This document shows, piece after piece, positions 43,679 through 56,392 of a stretch of 64,000 nucleotides of DNA (the stretch's first letter is position 1; each line of letters opens with the position of its first letter). The DNA lies in assembly GCF_029338255.1 (NCBI RefSeq), contig NZ_CP119787.1:992001-1056000 (forward strand). Reading direction: 5' to 3'. The notes beneath the pieces were generated by a model. That model saw only the letters and a list, made by a program, of their open reading frames with translations, searched no databases and was not told the DNA's origin. The position numbers and the translations under genes were made by a program. Source of the stretch: Haloarcula halobia (lineage in GTDB: Archaea > Halobacteriota > Halobacteria > Halobacteriales > Haloarculaceae).

Positions 43679-44110
43679 TTATGCGGCCGTTTCGAGTCGC
43701 GCCTCGATGTCGTCGAAGACGTCGGCGACGCGCTCGCGGATCTCCTCGCGGATCTCCCGCACCGTCTCGGCGTCCTGCCCGTCCGGGTCGGCAAGCGCCC
43801 AGTCGCGGATCTCGACGTCGGCGTCGAGTTCCAGCGTCGAACACCCCATCGTCGCGACCAGGTCACACGCGTTGAGCTCCTCGTCGGTGACCGTCCGCGG
43901 GACGCGGTCCGAGAGGTCGATATCCAGCTCCCGCATGGTCTCGACCACCTCGCCGTGAACGTGGTCGGCGGGGTGGGTCCCGCCGGTGACGACCTCGACG
44001 CGGTCCTCGAGGCCGCGCTCGGCAACCTCTCGCTCGGCGAAGGCGGTCGACATCTGCGAGCGACCGGCGTTCTGTACACAGACGAAGGCGACGCGGAATG
44101 TCTCGGTCAT
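43679..44110 (-). CDS. Low-molecular-weight phosphatase / arsenate reductase (ArsC-like)
   Basis: The 143-aa protein begins with the P-loop CVQNAGRSQM (Cys11 to Arg17) and ends with an acidic helix. A DPDG segment (DWALADPDGQDAE) replaces the usual DPY/DPF of the general acid loop. Such proteins act as arsenate reductases or tyrosine phosphatases. A Cys in MGCSTLE and one in LNACDLV may support thiol-coupled arsenate reduction. No ars transport genes are adjacent. Confidence 0.88.
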   Translation of the reverse strand: MTETFRVAFVCVQNAGRSQMSTAFAEREVAERGLEDRVEVVTGGTHPADHVHGEVVETMRELDIDLSDRVPRTVTDEELNACDLVATMGCSTLELDADVEIRDWALADPDGQDAETVREIREEIRERVADVFDDIEARLETAA

Positions 44111-44189
44111 GCTGTGTCCACGGAATCGCTCCGCGATAGGGAGGATTCGCCCACCGGATATATGTCGATTTCGGTGCCTTCAGACTTCA

Positions 44190-44209
44190 ATACTACTATT
44201 TAGTGGTAT
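44190..44209. promoter_or_regulatory. AT-rich inverted repeat in the arsC-mutS gap
   Basis: ATACTAC (44190-44196) and GTGGTAT (44203-44209) form arms with one mismatch around TATTTA. The right arm runs into a GGTATATT box, 70-80 nt before the mutS ATG. It may be an operator for the divergent phosphatase/arsenate reductase and mutS genes. Confidence 0.4.
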
Positions 44210-44285
44210 ATTCCGGTCCGGGGATCGGTCCCGCGTCCGCGTCGCTCCCGCAACCCTTACCCCGGGGACACGCACAGAAGTGGAT

Positions 44286-46961
44286 ATGACCGAGGCGACG
44301 GGCATCGTCGGGGAGTTCCTCACGCTCAAGGAGGGCACCGACGCGGACCTGCTGGCGATGCAGTGTGGCGACTTCTACGAGTTCTTCGGCGAGGACGCCG
44401 AGGTCGTCGCCGACGAACTCGATCTGAAGGTGAGCCAGAAGTCCTCCCACGGGTCCTCGTACCCGATGGCGGGCGTCCCCGTCGACGACCTCACGCCGTA
44501 CGTCGCCGCGCTGGTCGAGCGGGGCTACCGCGTGGCCGTCGCCGACCAGCACGAGACTACCGACGGCCACGCTCGCGAGATAACCCGCGTGGTAACGCCC
44601 GGCACGCACCTGGAGACGGGCGACGCCGCCGCGCAGTACCTCGCGGCGGTCGTCCGCCACCGCGAGGGTGACATTGACACCTACGGACTGGCCGTCGCGG
44701 ACGTGACGACCGGCCAGTTCCAGGTCACGCAACTCGACGGCGCCACCGCCGGCGAGGTGCTCTCGGAGCTGTACACGTTCGACCCCGCGGAGGTGCTCCC
44801 GGGGCCGGACCTGCGTGCCGACGACGACTTCCTCGAGAGCCTCCGCGAGCGGACCGACGCGGCGCTGACCCTGCACGCTACGGAGTCGTTCGCCCCCGGG
44901 CGAGCACGCCACCGGGTCCGCCAGCAGTTCGGCGCCGAGACGCTCGAGAGCGTCGGCATCGACGCCGACGACGCGGCTATCGCCGCCGCCGGGGCCGTCC
45001 TCTCGTACGTCGAGGAGACGGGCGTGGGGACGCTCGCGGCCGTCACGCGCCTGCAGGCCTACGGCGCCCGCGAGCACGTCGACCTGGACGCGACCACCCA
45101 GCGCAACCTCGAGCTCACCGAGACGATGCAGGGCGACAAGTCGGGGTCGCTGTTCGACACCATCGACCACACGGTGACCGCGGCCGGCCGGCGCCGCCTC
45201 CGGGAGTGGATTCAGCGGCCGCGGCGGGACCGCGGCGAGATTCGCCGCCGGCAGTCCTCGGTCGCCGCCTTCTCCCGGGCGGCGATGGCTCGCGAGGCCA
45301 TCCGCGAGACCCTCTCTGACGCCTACGACCTGGAGCGACTGGGCGCCCGCGCCATCTCCGGGAGCGCCGACGCCCGCGACCTGCGGGCGGTCCAGGAGAC
45401 GCTGGCGCTGCTGCCCGCGGTGGCCAGCGCCGTCGACGAGACCGAACGCCTCGCGGAGTCGCCGGTCGCCGACGCGCTCGCCGGCGCAGACCGCGAGGCC
45501 GCCGCCTCGCTCGCGGCGGAACTCGACGCGGCGCTCGTCGAGGACCCGCCCGGGACGGTCACGCAGGGCAGCCTCTTTCGCCGAGGCTACGACGACGAAC
45601 TCGACGATCTAGTCGAGGAACACGAGGCCGCCCTGGAGTGGCTCGACACCCTCCCCGAGCGCGAGAAGTCGCGGACCGGCATCACGCACCTCTCGGTCGA
45701 CCGGAACAAGACCGACGGCTACTACATCCAGGTCGGCAAGAGCGAGACCGACGCGGTCCCCGACGAGTACGAGGAGATCAAGACGCTGAAGAACTCGAAG
45801 CGCTACACCATCCCCGAACTCGACGAGCGCGAGCGGGACGTCCTCCGCCTGGAGGAACGGCGCCACGACCTCGAGTACGAGCTGTTCGAGGGGTTGCGCG
45901 ACCGGGTCGCCGAGCGGGCGACGCTCTTACAGGACGTCGGCCGCGCGCTCGCCGAGGTGGACGCGCTGGCCTCGCTCGCGGTCCACGCCGTCGAGAACGA
46001 CTGGACCCGCCCCGAGGTCCTCGAGGGGCGCGAACTCACCATCGAGGCGGGTCGTCACCCGGTCGTCGAACAGACCACCGAGTTCGTGCCCAACGACCTC
46101 GCGATGGACGACCAGCGCCAGTTCCTCGTCGTCACGGGGCCCAACATGAGCGGGAAGTCGACCTACATGCGCCAGACGGCGCTCATCACGCTGCTGGCGC
46201 AGGTCGGGAGTTTCGTCCCCGCGCGGTCGGCCCGCGTCGGCGTGGTCGACGGCATCTACACTCGCGTCGGCGCGCTGGACGAGCTCGCCCAGGGCCGCTC
46301 GACGTTCATGGTCGAGATGCAGGAACTCTCGAATATCCTCCACTCGGCGACCGACGAGTCGCTCGTCATCTTAGACGAGGTCGGCCGCGGGACCGCGACC
46401 TTCGACGGCATCTCCATCGCCTGGGCGGCCACCGAGTACCTGCACAACGAGGTGCGCGCGAAGACGCTCTTTGCCACGCACTACCACGAACTGACGACGC
46501 TGGCCGACCACCTCGAACGGGTCGAGAACGTCCACGTCGCGGCCGACGAGACGGACGGGGACGTCACCTTCCTCCGGACGGTCCGGGACGGCCCCACGGA
46601 CCGCTCGTATGGCATCCACGTCGCGGACCTGGCGGGCGTCCCCGGGCCGGTCGTCGAGCGCTCCCGGGAGGTGCTGGACCGCCTCCGCGAGGAGAAGGCC
46701 ATCGAAGCGAAGGGCAGCGGTGGCGGCGGGACCACGCAGGCCGTCTTCGACCTCTCCTCGGGGACGTTCGGCGGCGCCACGGAGTCGCCCACGAGCGCCG
46801 ACGGCGGCTCGGCCCAGCAGGATCCGACGCTGGAAGACCGGTTCGGCCCCGGGGCCGAGGACGTCCTGCGGGCCCTCTCGGAGCTGGACGTCAACGAGAC
46901 GCCGCCGGTCGAACTGCTGGCGACGGTCCAGGCCTGGCAGGAGGACCTAGCAGACGACTGA
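44286..46961 (+). CDS. mutS: DNA mismatch repair protein MutS (paralog 2)
   Basis: The 891-aa protein has the mismatch motif F-Y-E at residues 30-32 (CGDFYEFF), the MutS core and the ATPase with GPNMSGKST near residue 618, DEVGRGTAT and THYHEL. The open frame extends far upstream but the ATG at 44286 matches the family N-terminus. The tail has a Gly/Ser linker and the helical end ELLATVQAWQEDLADD. It differs clearly from the MutS at 24238, so this is an old paralog pair and not a recent duplication. Confidence 0.96.
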   Translation: MTEATGIVGEFLTLKEGTDADLLAMQCGDFYEFFGEDAEVVADELDLKVSQKSSHGSSYPMAGVPVDDLTPYVAALVERGYRVAVADQHETTDGHAREITRVVTPGTHLETGDAAAQYLAAVVRHREGDIDTYGLAVADVTTGQFQVTQLDGATAGEVLSELYTFDPAEVLPGPDLRADDDFLESLRERTDAALTLHATESFAPGRARHRVRQQFGAETLESVGIDADDAAIAAAGAVLSYVEETGVGTLAAVTRLQAYGAREHVDLDATTQRNLELTETMQGDKSGSLFDTIDHTVTAAGRRRLREWIQRPRRDRGEIRRRQSSVAAFSRAAMAREAIRETLSDAYDLERLGARAISGSADARDLRAVQETLALLPAVASAVDETERLAESPVADALAGADREAAASLAAELDAALVEDPPGTVTQGSLFRRGYDDELDDLVEEHEAALEWLDTLPEREKSRTGITHLSVDRNKTDGYYIQVGKSETDAVPDEYEEIKTLKNSKRYTIPELDERERDVLRLEERRHDLEYELFEGLRDRVAERATLLQDVGRALAEVDALASLAVHAVENDWTRPEVLEGRELTIEAGRHPVVEQTTEFVPNDLAMDDQRQFLVVTGPNMSGKSTYMRQTALITLLAQVGSFVPARSARVGVVDGIYTRVGALDELAQGRSTFMVEMQELSNILHSATDESLVILDEVGRGTATFDGISIAWAATEYLHNEVRAKTLFATHYHELTTLADHLERVENVHVAADETDGDVTFLRTVRDGPTDRSYGIHVADLAGVPGPVVERSREVLDRLREEKAIEAKGSGGGGTTQAVFDLSSGTFGGATESPTSADGGSAQQDPTLEDRFGPGAEDVLRALSELDVNETPPVELLATVQAWQEDLADD

Positions 46962-50957: not shown

Positions 50958-52976
<2,019 letters not shown>

Positions 52977-53013
52977 CCGGTTGAACTAAGCCCCAGTCTC
53001 TCGATGGGGGGAT

Positions 53014-53958
53014 ATGACACTCGTCACGGTCGGCGAGACGGCCCTCCGCTTCTCGCCACCGGCCGGTCACAGATTCGAAACCGCCGACGAGGTGACCCTC
53101 CACACGGACGGGATGGCCAGCACCGCCGCCGCCACCGCCCACCGCCTCGGTGGCGACGCCGTCTGGGTCTCGAAGCTCCCCGACTCGCCGCTCGGGCGCC
53201 GCGTCGTCGCCGAACTCCACGAACACGGGCTGGAGACGGACGTCGTCTGGGCCGACCCGGCGGGCGGCCGTCAGGGCCTGTCCTTCCACGAGGACGCCGC
53301 GCCCCCGCGGGAGACCCGCCTCCTCCAGGACCGGCACGGCGCCGCCATGGCGACGCTCACACCCGGCGAGCTCCCGATGGACCGCCTCCGGGCCGCCGAC
53401 GCGCTGTTCGTCGCCGGGTCGATGGCCGCGCTGTCAGAGACGGCCGCCGACACGGCGGGCGCCTTGCTGCGGGCCATGCCGGGAACGACGGCGCTGGACC
53501 TGGACTTTCACCCCGGACTGTGGACCACAGAACGGGCCTTCGAGACGCTGTCCGGCCTCTTCGACGCCGTCGACGTCCTCTTTGCGGGCGAGAGCCAGGC
53601 CGAGGCCCTGTTCGATACGAACGGCCGCCCGCGCGAGATGGCCCACGCCATCGCCGCGGACTACGGCTTCGAGACGGTGGTCCTGACGCGAAACGAGTAC
53701 GGTGCCGTCGCCTTCCACGACAACGTCATCCACGAACGGGACGCTGTCGAGACGGAGCCGGTCGACGACACCGGCCAGCACGCTGCCTTCGTGGGCGCCG
53801 TCCTCGAACGCCTCGTCGCGGACGTCCCGCTCGACGAGGCCCTGTCCCACGGCGTCGCGGCCGCCGCGCTCACGCGGACGATGCCGGGGGCGCTGACGCC
53901 GATAGAGCCCACCGAGGTGGAGCGACTCGTCGCGGCCCAGTCCGACGACCGCCCCTGA
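53014..53958 (+). CDS. PfkB-family sugar kinase, catalytic aspartate lost
   Basis: The 314-aa protein closely follows the haloarchaeal KDG kinase pattern (TVGETALRFSPPAG, KLPDSPLGRRVV). At the anion-hole/catalytic motif, PfkB enzymes have GAGDAF; here residues 254-259 read GQHAAF. The catalytic base position is Ala257. The N-terminal GGA-x-N sugar-binding motif is also altered (DGMAST). A pseudo-kinase with a regulatory or sugar-sensing role, or a kinase with a shifted mechanism, are both possible. The ATP-binding surface cannot be judged from sequence alone. Confidence 0.82.
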   Translation: MTLVTVGETALRFSPPAGHRFETADEVTLHTDGMASTAAATAHRLGGDAVWVSKLPDSPLGRRVVAELHEHGLETDVVWADPAGGRQGLSFHEDAAPPRETRLLQDRHGAAMATLTPGELPMDRLRAADALFVAGSMAALSETAADTAGALLRAMPGTTALDLDFHPGLWTTERAFETLSGLFDAVDVLFAGESQAEALFDTNGRPREMAHAIAADYGFETVVLTRNEYGAVAFHDNVIHERDAVETEPVDDTGQHAAFVGAVLERLVADVPLDEALSHGVAAAALTRTMPGALTPIEPTEVERLVAAQSDDRP

Positions 53959-54032: not shown

Positions 54033-55268
54033 ATGCTCAAGAATCGGAGTCGAGCCGCGACACTGCTCGTCCTCTTTCTGGTCGTGGCCGGCAGTACGGT
54101 GGTGCTGTCGGGGGCCGCGACGGCACAGTCACAGGTGACGCTTACGGTCACCGTCGTCGATCAGGACGGCGACCCGCTGAGCAACATGGACATCTCGGCG
54201 CGGTGGGACGGCGGCGGCCCGGTCAACGAGACGACCAGTGCCAACGGCCAGGCGCTCGTCGACGTCCCCGAGGGCGCTGACGTCCGGATATCCGTCCACG
54301 ACGACGAGTACGTCCGCAACGTCCCGCTGACCGTCGAGGACGCCTCGACCCGCAGCGTCGACGTCGACGTCTCGCCCGCGGCCACCGCGACGGTGTCCGT
54401 CGTCGGGACCGACGACAGCCCCGTCGAGGACGCCCACGTCCGGCTGTACACCGACGGGAACTACGTGACCGACCAGCGCACCGGCAGCGACGGGACGGTC
54501 ACCACCGCGCCTATCGAGGAGGGAACCTACACCGTCATCGCGACCAAGGCGGGGTACTTCCGGAACACGACCCGCTCCACCTTCGTCGGCGAGAACGAGA
54601 CGTCGCTCACGCTGACCGAGGGGTCGGTCCTCGTCACGTTCTCAGTGGTCGACGACCACTTCGACCCGGCCGAACCGATGCGCGGGGCACGGATACGCGT
54701 CGGCGACGTGGGCTCCATCCAGACCCTCTCGGACGGCGGGGCGACGATCTCGGTACCGGTCAACGACCGCTACGACGTCCGGATCACCAAGGACGGCTAC
54801 CAGACATACGAACAGCGTCTCGCCATCCAGGAGTCCGAGACGACGGTCAACGTTTCCATCTCGCGGACGCCCCGCATCGACCTGACGTCGGCCAACGAAC
54901 GCGTGGTGGTCGACGAGTCGGTCCGCCTGATGGTCACCGACGAGTACGGTGAGGCGGTGCCCAACGCGACGGTCCGCCGGGGCGAGGAGGTGGTCGGCAC
55001 TACCGACGCGGACGGCGAGATAACCGCCACCGTCCCGACGGCCGGGAACGTGACCTTCTCCGCCGAGAACGGGTCGCTGACGGCGACCGTCACCGTCGAG
55101 GGTGTCCAGTCCGGCGGCGGGACGGAGTCGCCGACCGAGACGGCCACACCGACGGCCACCGACCAGCCCACGACGGACTCGACGGGCATAGCGGGCCCCG
55201 GATTCACCCCCGTCGCCGCGCTGGTCGCAGTGGCCCTCGCGGCGGCCTTCCTGGCACGGCGCCGCTAA
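54033..55268 (+). CDS. PGF-CTERM surface protein with repeated beta-sandwich domains
   Basis: The 411-aa protein has a signal peptide (about residues 1-31) and at least three carboxypeptidase-regulatory/Ig-like repeats. These are recognised by the pattern D-x-D-G-x-(P/V) with A(T/D)VRI turns, for instance VVDQDGDPLSNMDI, VVGTDDSPVEDAHV and VTDEYGEAVPNATV. A Thr/Pro-rich stalk and GPGFTPVAALVAVALAAAFLARRR-type PGF-CTERM end follow. It should be cleaved and lipid-anchored by archaeosortase. Function is probably structural or adhesive. Confidence 0.8.
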   Translation: MLKNRSRAATLLVLFLVVAGSTVVLSGAATAQSQVTLTVTVVDQDGDPLSNMDISARWDGGGPVNETTSANGQALVDVPEGADVRISVHDDEYVRNVPLTVEDASTRSVDVDVSPAATATVSVVGTDDSPVEDAHVRLYTDGNYVTDQRTGSDGTVTTAPIEEGTYTVIATKAGYFRNTTRSTFVGENETSLTLTEGSVLVTFSVVDDHFDPAEPMRGARIRVGDVGSIQTLSDGGATISVPVNDRYDVRITKDGYQTYEQRLAIQESETTVNVSISRTPRIDLTSANERVVVDESVRLMVTDEYGEAVPNATVRRGEEVVGTTDADGEITATVPTAGNVTFSAENGSLTATVTVEGVQSGGGTESPTETATPTATDQPTTDSTGIAGPGFTPVAALVAVALAAAFLARRR

Positions 55269-55306: not shown

Positions 55307-56392
55307 ATGACCGTTCTCGAGGCTGTCCACGAGGCTCACAACGCGACGTTCCGCGAGGTGGGGGGTCGGCGCGTCGTCGACAACTACGGCCGCCCCGAGC
55401 GGACCCACCGCGCAGTTCGGAACGTCGTCGGCGTCTGCGAGTTCGGCTACGGCGTCGTCGTCGTCACTGGCGAGGACCGGGTCGAGTACGTCGACAACGC
55501 CGTCTCGAACCGCGTCCCCGACGCCGACGGACAGGGGACCTACGCGCTCTTGCTCGACCCACAGGGCCGGGTCGAGACCGACATGTACGTCTACAACGCC
55601 GGCGAGCGTCTACTGGTCTTCACCCCGCCACAGACGGCCGAGTCCCTGGCCGAGGCGTGGGCCGAGAAGACGTTCATCCAGGACGTCGCGTTCGAGGTCG
55701 CGACCGACGACTTCGCCACCTTCGGCGTCCACGGGCCGAAGTCAACCGAGAAGATCGCGAGCGTGCTCCACCAGGCGGCCTCGCCCGAGGCGCCGCTCAC
55801 GTTCGACCGGGGCGAACTGGGCGACGCGGGCGTGACCGTCGTCCGGACCGACAACCTCGCCGGCGAGGAGAGCTACGACGTCATCTGTCGCGCCGACGAC
55901 GCCGAGCGGGTGTTCGACACGCTCGTCAACCGCGGGCTCAACGCCGTCCCGTTCGGGTACACGACCTGGGAGACGCTGACGCTGGAGGCGGGGACGCCGC
56001 TGTTCGACACCGAGATCGAGGGGGCCCTCCCGAACGACCTGGGCCTGCGCAACGCGCTTGACTTCGAGAAGGGGTGTTACGTCGGCCAGGAAGTCGTCTC
56101 CCGGGTCGAGAACCGCGGGCACCCGAGCACGCGACTCGCCGGCCTGGCCGTCGAGGCCCTGCCCGAACCGGGCGCGGCCGTCTTCGCCGGCGACGAGCAC
56201 GTCGGCGAGGTGACTCGCGCCGTCGACAGTCCGATGCGCGCGGCCCCCATCGCCATGGCGACCCTGGACTGGGATTTGCCCGCGGACGCGCTGACCGTCC
56301 GCGTCGACGACGACCCGGTCGGGGCCCAGCGGGTGTCCCTGCCCTTCGTCGAGGGCTCTGCGACGTCGGCGCGACTGCCGACCTACGAGTAA
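55307..56392 (+). CDS. YgfZ/GcvT-domain folate-binding protein
   Basis: The 361-aa protein has the YgfZ signature KGCYVGQE (residues 255-262) and a GcvT-like fold. YgfZ-type proteins support Fe-S cluster repair or synthesis through a folate-dependent step. It lacks the glycine-cleavage T-protein features as a full enzyme, and no gcv genes are adjacent. Its end overlaps the convergent membrane protein gene by 10 bp. Confidence 0.87.
   Translation: MTVLEAVHEAHNATFREVGGRRVVDNYGRPERTHRAVRNVVGVCEFGYGVVVVTGEDRVEYVDNAVSNRVPDADGQGTYALLLDPQGRVETDMYVYNAGERLLVFTPPQTAESLAEAWAEKTFIQDVAFEVATDDFATFGVHGPKSTEKIASVLHQAASPEAPLTFDRGELGDAGVTVVRTDNLAGEESYDVICRADDAERVFDTLVNRGLNAVPFGYTTWETLTLEAGTPLFDTEIEGALPNDLGLRNALDFEKGCYVGQEVVSRVENRGHPSTRLAGLAVEALPEPGAAVFAGDEHVGEVTRAVDSPMRAAPIAMATLDWDLPADALTVRVDDDPVGAQRVSLPFVEGSATSARLPTYE

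Follow-up and report, generated by a model that had tools for sequence, protein, structure and literature searches.

A KDG kinase relative without the catalytic motif, probably a pseudokinase, is maintained by selection in Haloarculaceae

Results

Genes and features of the locus

The window (the whole stretch of DNA analyzed, 64,000 nucleotides of the Haloarcula halobia genome) contains an open reading frame at 53014-53958 (+ strand) that starts with ATG and encodes 314 amino acids with no internal stops. Based on Pfam, NCBIfam, and AlphaFold2, it was classified as a candidate pseudokinase gene, with a product of the PfkB or KDG kinase fold that carries no GxGD motif. The gene follows mutL (50958-52976, +; 539 bits against NCBIfam TIGR00585, cut-off 180) after a gap of 37 nt. 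Within this gap (52977-53013), a TATA-like element, AACTAA (52984-52989, +), is located 30 nt 5' of the ATG at a conserved distance, and the sequence from there to the start codon (around ...CGATG...) likewise looks conserved across the genus. Downstream are a predicted surface protein (54033-55268, +) with a PGF-CTERM-like end (21.8 bits against TIGR04126, cut-off 24.5) and carboxypeptidase-regulatory-like domains, and a GcvT/YgfZ-like gene (55307-56392, +). Elsewhere in the window, the mutS reading frame (43986-46961, +), as listed from its first GTG, encodes a long N-terminal segment that does not resemble MutS, whereas a complete MutS (964 bits) is encoded from approximately position 44286 onward; the true start is therefore probably farther downstream than listed.

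The arrangement around the gene was compared among 57 distinct loci of the clade described below. The mutL gene was directly upstream in 41 of them and no more than three genes away in 45, the PGF-CTERM-like surface protein was at position +1 in 39, and the GcvT/YgfZ-like gene was at +1 or +2 in 27. The latter two neighbors were absent from the six canonical loci compared, five of which had been selected for following mutL. In four of these six, an FAD-type oxidoreductase was found at +1, and the one tested resembled dihydrolipoyl dehydrogenases and MerA, with all scores under the cut-offs. The neighbors were rejected as proof of function, since their conservation may be plain synteny and five of the six comparison loci were picked for mutL linkage; they are a lead and not evidence of partnership. 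In other families, five canonical genes (L042, L044, L045, L048, and L051) lie less than 500 nt after mutL, of which the three tested scored 519-538 bits against the KDG kinase model, and HVO_0549 of Haloferax volcanii is presumably near mutL too. The mutL-kdgK order was read as ancestral, with the kinase having turned into a pseudokinase in Haloarculaceae.

Family assignment and canonical paralog

The protein scored 97.8 bits against the Pfam PfkB family (PF00294), above the gathering cut-off of 25.8, and 314.3 bits against NCBIfam NF041332 (haloarchaeal KDG/KDGal kinase), below the equivalog cut-off of 440. The first-pass annotation had described a KDG kinase pattern outside the active site, and both of the stretches it named, TVGETALRFSPPAG and KLPDSPLGRRVV, were found in the protein. 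An AlphaFold2 run on a 16-sequence alignment gave a best model with a pLDDT of 87.1 and a pTM of 0.88, while the other four of the five models had pLDDT values of 64-71. The solved structures nearest to the best model were the KDG kinases of Sulfolobus, Thermotoga, and Thermus. The model matched 2afb with a Z score of 40.0 and KDG kinases and ribokinases with Z scores of 34-40, which places it in the ribokinase-like fold.

Five further PfkB matches were identified in the window genome. A canonical paralog (G000:C1:1942976-1943932) carries a GSGD motif, scored about 473.5-476.0 bits against the cut-off of 440, and adjoins genes for pyruvate kinase and a ROK-family kinase on the same strand. An intact second copy elsewhere in the genome, envisaged at first pass, is therefore present, and because this GSGD paralog exceeds the cut-off in the same genome, the protein encoded at 53014-53958 is not the true KDG kinase.

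Phylogeny and distribution

Of the 125 homologs aligned, 43 contained GxGD and 82 did not, the latter being one gene per genome. A single branch with a support of 100 divided the two groups in the tree of all 125 rows. A second tree of 85 rows, for which six GAGD-type sugar kinases served as the root, grouped the 53 non-canonical rows in one clade (100/100) nested among 26 canonical haloarchaeal KDG kinase rows; the fork that put the root inside the canonical group had only moderate support (85/76). Loci had been fetched across the family and order from 60 places, picked by score with one or two per genome, and short or distant matches were left out (L181-L183 and L185-L190). The substitutions are thus common to a clade, one of the outcomes foreseen at first pass. 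A single-strain mutation or a sequencing error was rejected, as a gene with 95% identity in another species also encodes GQHA and the 82 and 43 homologs were split by one branch.

A second haloarchaeal PfkB group (L202-L211), with GAGDGF and DPNLR motifs and 27-32% identity to the window protein, occurred in genera g5 and g29 and in genome G039, and served as the outgroup.

The motif-less gene was present in 30 of the 32 own-genus genomes searched, and the two genomes where it was missing were 71% (G011) and 80% (G024) complete. It was found in 20 of the 22 sampled genera of Haloarculaceae (exceptions g5 and g33), with carriers including Haloarcula, Halomicroarcula, Halosimplex, Halorientalis, Halapricum, Halorhabdus, Halomicrobium, Salinibaculum, Salinirussus, Halovenus, and Halomarina. 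Outside Haloarculaceae, one clade gene with the motif GAFD was identified in G039 of family f5. Some near-complete Haloarculaceae genomes from other genera than these two exceptions, for example G147 and G148, yielded no copy at the thresholds used. As some complete genomes have no copy, the gene is not essential and is dispensable in places.

Changes in the active site

At residues 254-257 (53773-53784, +), the sequence GQHA replaces the anion hole and catalytic Asp of the G-[T/S]-G-D motif in the 125-homolog alignment. The initial reading of GQHA as the catalytic motif, with Ala257 in place of the catalytic Asp, agreed with this alignment: GQHA lay under the G-[T/S/A]-G-D of 43 of 43 canonical haloarchaeal homologs, and under the GAGD of the Thermotoga (2afb) and Thermus (1v19) KDG kinases. 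The DTxGAGD-type anion hole and catalytic Asp, a feature of the PfkB/ribokinase superfamily, is therefore absent from the window protein. The same reading had named GAGD as the motif replaced. The loss itself was upheld, but the canonical haloarchaeal motif is GTGD in 33, GSGD in nine, and GAGD in only one of the 43 homologs.

Three other stretches differ from the canonical proteins. DGMAST at residues 32-37 (53107-53124, +) replaces the [A/G]GAESN found in most canonical rows, consistent with the N-terminal change noted earlier; DLDFHP at residues 162-167 (53497-53514, +) replaces DxNYRS; and TRNEYG at residues 225-230 (53686-53703, +) has Asn at position 227, where all 43 canonical rows have Gly. 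With the KDG-site columns aligned to 2afb and 1v19, we take Tyr90, Tyr105, Arg107, Arg166, and Asp257 to line the KDG site, following the Thermus and Sulfolobus structures. The first four of these positions are Ser, Gln, Arg, and His in the window protein, which leaves Arg107 alone. As most KDG-site positions are changed, KDG is an unlikely ligand of this protein.

Across the 82 clade genes, the anion-hole Gly256 was missing from every one. Position 257 was Glu in 25, Ala in 23, Asp in 23, Gly in six, and Ser in five, so an acidic residue (Asp or Glu) remained in 48; such a split means that the catalytic base is free of constraint in the clade. The 30 own-genus genes encoded GQHE (14), GQHA (12), GQHD (2), GQHG (1), and RQHD (1), and the other 52 encoded GQHD (14), GQHE (9), GQHA (5), GAAD (3), GQHG (2), GGHA (2), GTHS (2), and 15 single motifs. 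The pattern xQHx was shared by 60 of the 82, while the motifs of more divergent members added later included GAVD, GGAD, GATE, GARS, GGYG, and GSHD. In the most divergent members (L197-L201 of genus g37, with GAVD and GGAD), the DxDYRP stretch was gone too, as if the constraint on the cleft were weaker in this genus.

The KDG site showed a similar range of changes. Position 90 was Thr in 36 genes, Ser in 10, Val in nine, and other residues in the rest, with no Tyr as far as listed; position 105 was Gln in 47, His in 14, and Asp in 12, with Tyr retained in three. Arg166 was retained in 25 and replaced by His in 27 and Gln in 13; the change to His was found in 27 of the 30 own-genus genes, including that of the window. 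Asp293 was replaced by Pro in 67 of 82 and was absent as far as listed. By contrast with these losses, Gly33 was retained in all 82 genes and Arg107 in 77, and across the fold 42 positions were conserved in both classes and 29 were newly conserved (85% level).

The first-pass annotation had proposed that the catalytic and N-terminal sites, as two independent sites, were lost together. This did not hold: the anion-hole change is clade-wide, while Asn37 is still found in 53 of the 82 clade genes and in nine of the 30 own-genus genes. On that alignment evidence, the N-terminal change is later and patchy.

KDG kinase and dehydratase across genomes

Of the 146 family genomes, 85 had a KDG kinase over the cut-off. 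As the marker of the pathway, a single dehydratase ortholog was chosen, MR_MLE_C alone being too broad for this purpose. The ortholog is named a gluconate dehydratase on the basis of family similarity, with all models below cut-off, and of its location near a canonical KDG kinase in G095 and G098. DHDPS-family aldolases were tried as a marker as well and were dropped, as the members in the window genome were indistinguishable.

The dehydratase ortholog was present in 11 of 11 tested genomes with the canonical kinase, compared with two (G064 and G071) of 19 genomes that contained the motif-less gene and in which no KDG kinase exceeded the cut-off (Fisher's p = 1.4e-6, relatedness ignored). The kinase of G095, at 420 bits just below the cut-off, was counted as canonical by score and place and not by motif. 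Outside the 19, genomes of the same kind included G077, G091, G156, and several incomplete ones. In eight of the 19, position 257 of the non-canonical protein was Ala, Ser, or Gly. The gene persists in 17 genomes that have neither a KDG kinase over the cut-off nor the dehydratase, and this speaks against a function linked to the phosphorylation of KDG or to the KDG kinase. In G064, a weak match of 128.5 bits with one internal TGA was also observed (locus L212).

Selection and promoter

In seven close own-genus pairs, three of which have genomes in common, the dN/dS of the motif-less gene was 0.24, 0.066, 0.155, 0.19, 0.173, 0.196, and 0.162, and that of the canonical paralog in the same order was 0.136, 0.054, 0.118, 0.138, 0.126, 0.282, and 0.118. 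In two wider pairs, the values were 0.184 and 0.368 for the motif-less gene and 0.275 and 0.379 for the paralog. Among 251 own-genus pairs with a dS of 0.05-1, the median was 0.196 and the maximum 0.447, and the reading frame was open in all 82 clade genes used. The gene is under strong purifying selection, and the constraint on it may be slightly weaker than that on the canonical enzyme, with a slightly higher dN/dS in six of the seven close pairs. The earlier suggestion that selection keeps the frame intact was thus supported by the low ratios in the close pairs.

The word HTAW, starting at -27 to -30 from the ATG, occurred in 78 of the 82 clade genes, including all 30 from the own genus and 48 of the remaining 52. 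Control bins contained 0-1 occurrences in the own genus, apart from one bin of 14 that adjoins the element, and 0-3 in the others; the word was also found in 25 of 43 canonical genes. AACTAA is probably the gene's own promoter, of the leaderless type. That the gene is kept merely through the mutL transcript was judged unlikely, given the fixed distance of the element from the ATG and the 12 of 57 distinct loci without mutL within three upstream genes, an upper figure as some loci end at contig ends.

Discussion

The clade combines a conserved fold with catalytic residues lost under selection, the combination that characterizes a PfkB-fold pseudokinase. We infer from these patterns that kinase activity has been lost and that the protein now has a binding role; an ancient pseudokinase that acts by binding and not by catalysis is the reading we prefer, at a probability of about 0.65. 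The first-pass annotation had proposed retention for a non-catalytic job. Selection and the existence of a clade bear out the retention, and a role that is non-catalytic or at least changed also fits, while the form of the idea in which the protein partners the true kinase does not fit as a general role. The other form that it named, a sensor of sugar, may or may not hold.

The gene would have descended from a haloarchaeal gene for KDG kinase linked to mutL. The anion hole G-x-G, now mostly G-Q-H, would have been lost from its product in the common ancestor of Haloarculaceae and their close relatives, after which the position of the catalytic Asp would have been free to become Glu, Ala, Asp, Gly, or Ser. 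Where the pathway exists, KDG would be phosphorylated by the other canonical kinase, here the one encoded beside pyruvate kinase. The fold would have been retained, and the protein would have been kept for a function independent of KDG phosphorylation, most likely binding of a non-KDG ligand, a protein, or both, through a rebuilt cleft and the retained lid residues. Some clade members may still bind sugar acids or keep residual activity, given the acidic residue at position 257 in 48 of 82 genes, Arg107 in 77, and Arg166 in 25.

It is possible, though we consider it unlikely, that the kinase site was rebuilt in the family ancestor around Asp164 and His256, with His240, for a new reaction or for binding of a new effector. 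If true, these archaea would have a dedicated enzyme or regulator, and in several genera it would have persisted beyond the KDG pathway. The narrower proposal that the protein is still an enzyme, with Asp164, His256, and perhaps His240 catalyzing another reaction or phosphorylating another substrate, seems improbable to us. Selection is strong, and the newly conserved residues stand out against an otherwise variable old site (His240 in 80, Asp in place of Asn164 in 70, and His256 in 69 of the 82 genes). However, the nucleotide side has largely gone, with Gly227 retained in only 14 genes (Ser in 53) and Lys287 replaced by Ala (39), Thr (17), Ser (17), or other residues and absent as far as listed; position 257 varies freely, and several subclades have no His256.

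Set against loss of catalysis with a binding role, a regulatory or stabilizing partnership with the canonical KDG kinase appears quite improbable. Both genes occur in the window genome and belong to the same fold family, and the lid residues Asp106-Arg107 are kept; the genes are nevertheless far apart (1.045 and 1.943 Mb), and as a general role the partnership fails in the 19 tested genomes in which no KDG kinase exceeds the cut-off; of these, 17 have no dehydratase either. It is very improbable that the protein, or at least its GQHD versions, still works as a KDG or sugar-acid kinase despite the altered motif: Asp257 in 23 of 82 genes and the presence of the dehydratase in G064 (GQHD) and G071 with no KDG kinase over the cut-off would fit it, but position 257 is Ala in the proteins of both the window and G071, Gly256 is lost in all 82, and Lys287 and Asp293 are lost as far as listed. 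A decaying relic heading to loss is the least probable of all, as the variable active-site letters among genera, the genera or genomes without the gene, and the slightly raised dN/dS in six of seven close pairs are outweighed by 82 open frames, fold-wide conservation (42 and 29 positions), low dN/dS, and the conserved TATA-like element; random decay had been doubted at first pass, and the low ratios and this element make it unlikely.

For the preferred reading of a binding pseudokinase, two consequences follow. Clade proteins match the curated KDG kinase model well under its cut-off, so careless annotation would yield a false KDG kinase, and with it a false part of the Entner-Doudoroff pathway, in genomes of which 17 of the 19 tested are also without the dehydratase. 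Additionally, the graded series of active sites (GTGD, GQHD, GQHE, GQHA, GQHG, and others) in culturable archaea would make the transition from a metabolic kinase to a non-enzyme testable.

To our knowledge, an archaeal PfkB pseudokinase clade has not been described before. The titles and opening parts of abstracts of the open-access papers searched contained nothing on such a clade, and in one paper KDG kinase occurred in a reference alone (PMC10267330). Among known systems, the closest are the haloarchaeal KDG/KDGal kinases of NF041332, for which HVO_0549 of H. volcanii is cited as a KDG kinase (PMC8551123). The clade protein shares their fold and length, keeps their N-terminal and lid motifs, and is nested among them in the tree, and its gene follows mutL, as five canonical genes do in other families. 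It differs in its 314 bits against a cut-off of 440 and in the loss of GxGD, the KDG-site Tyr, Lys287, and Asp293.

The plant FRUCTOKINASE-LIKE proteins FLN1 and FLN2 are PfkB-type proteins that form part of the plastid RNA polymerase complex (PMC3409070). They serve within a complex and are not known to be kept for sugar phosphorylation, and the haloarchaeal protein may be likened to them as a PfkB-fold protein maintained for a role other than phosphorylating sugars. Unlike the haloarchaeal clade, they belong to the plant plastid and the fructokinase branch, and their partner is known. Yeast Gal3 is not known to be homologous to the PfkB-fold clade protein and belongs to another sugar kinase family, with ligand and partner known. 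The same source presents it as a galactokinase-like sensor (PMC3409070). By analogy, the clade protein might act as a sensor in the manner of Gal3, a sugar kinase relative without catalysis that signals by binding a ligand and a partner, or as a subunit of a complex in the manner of FLN1 and FLN2.
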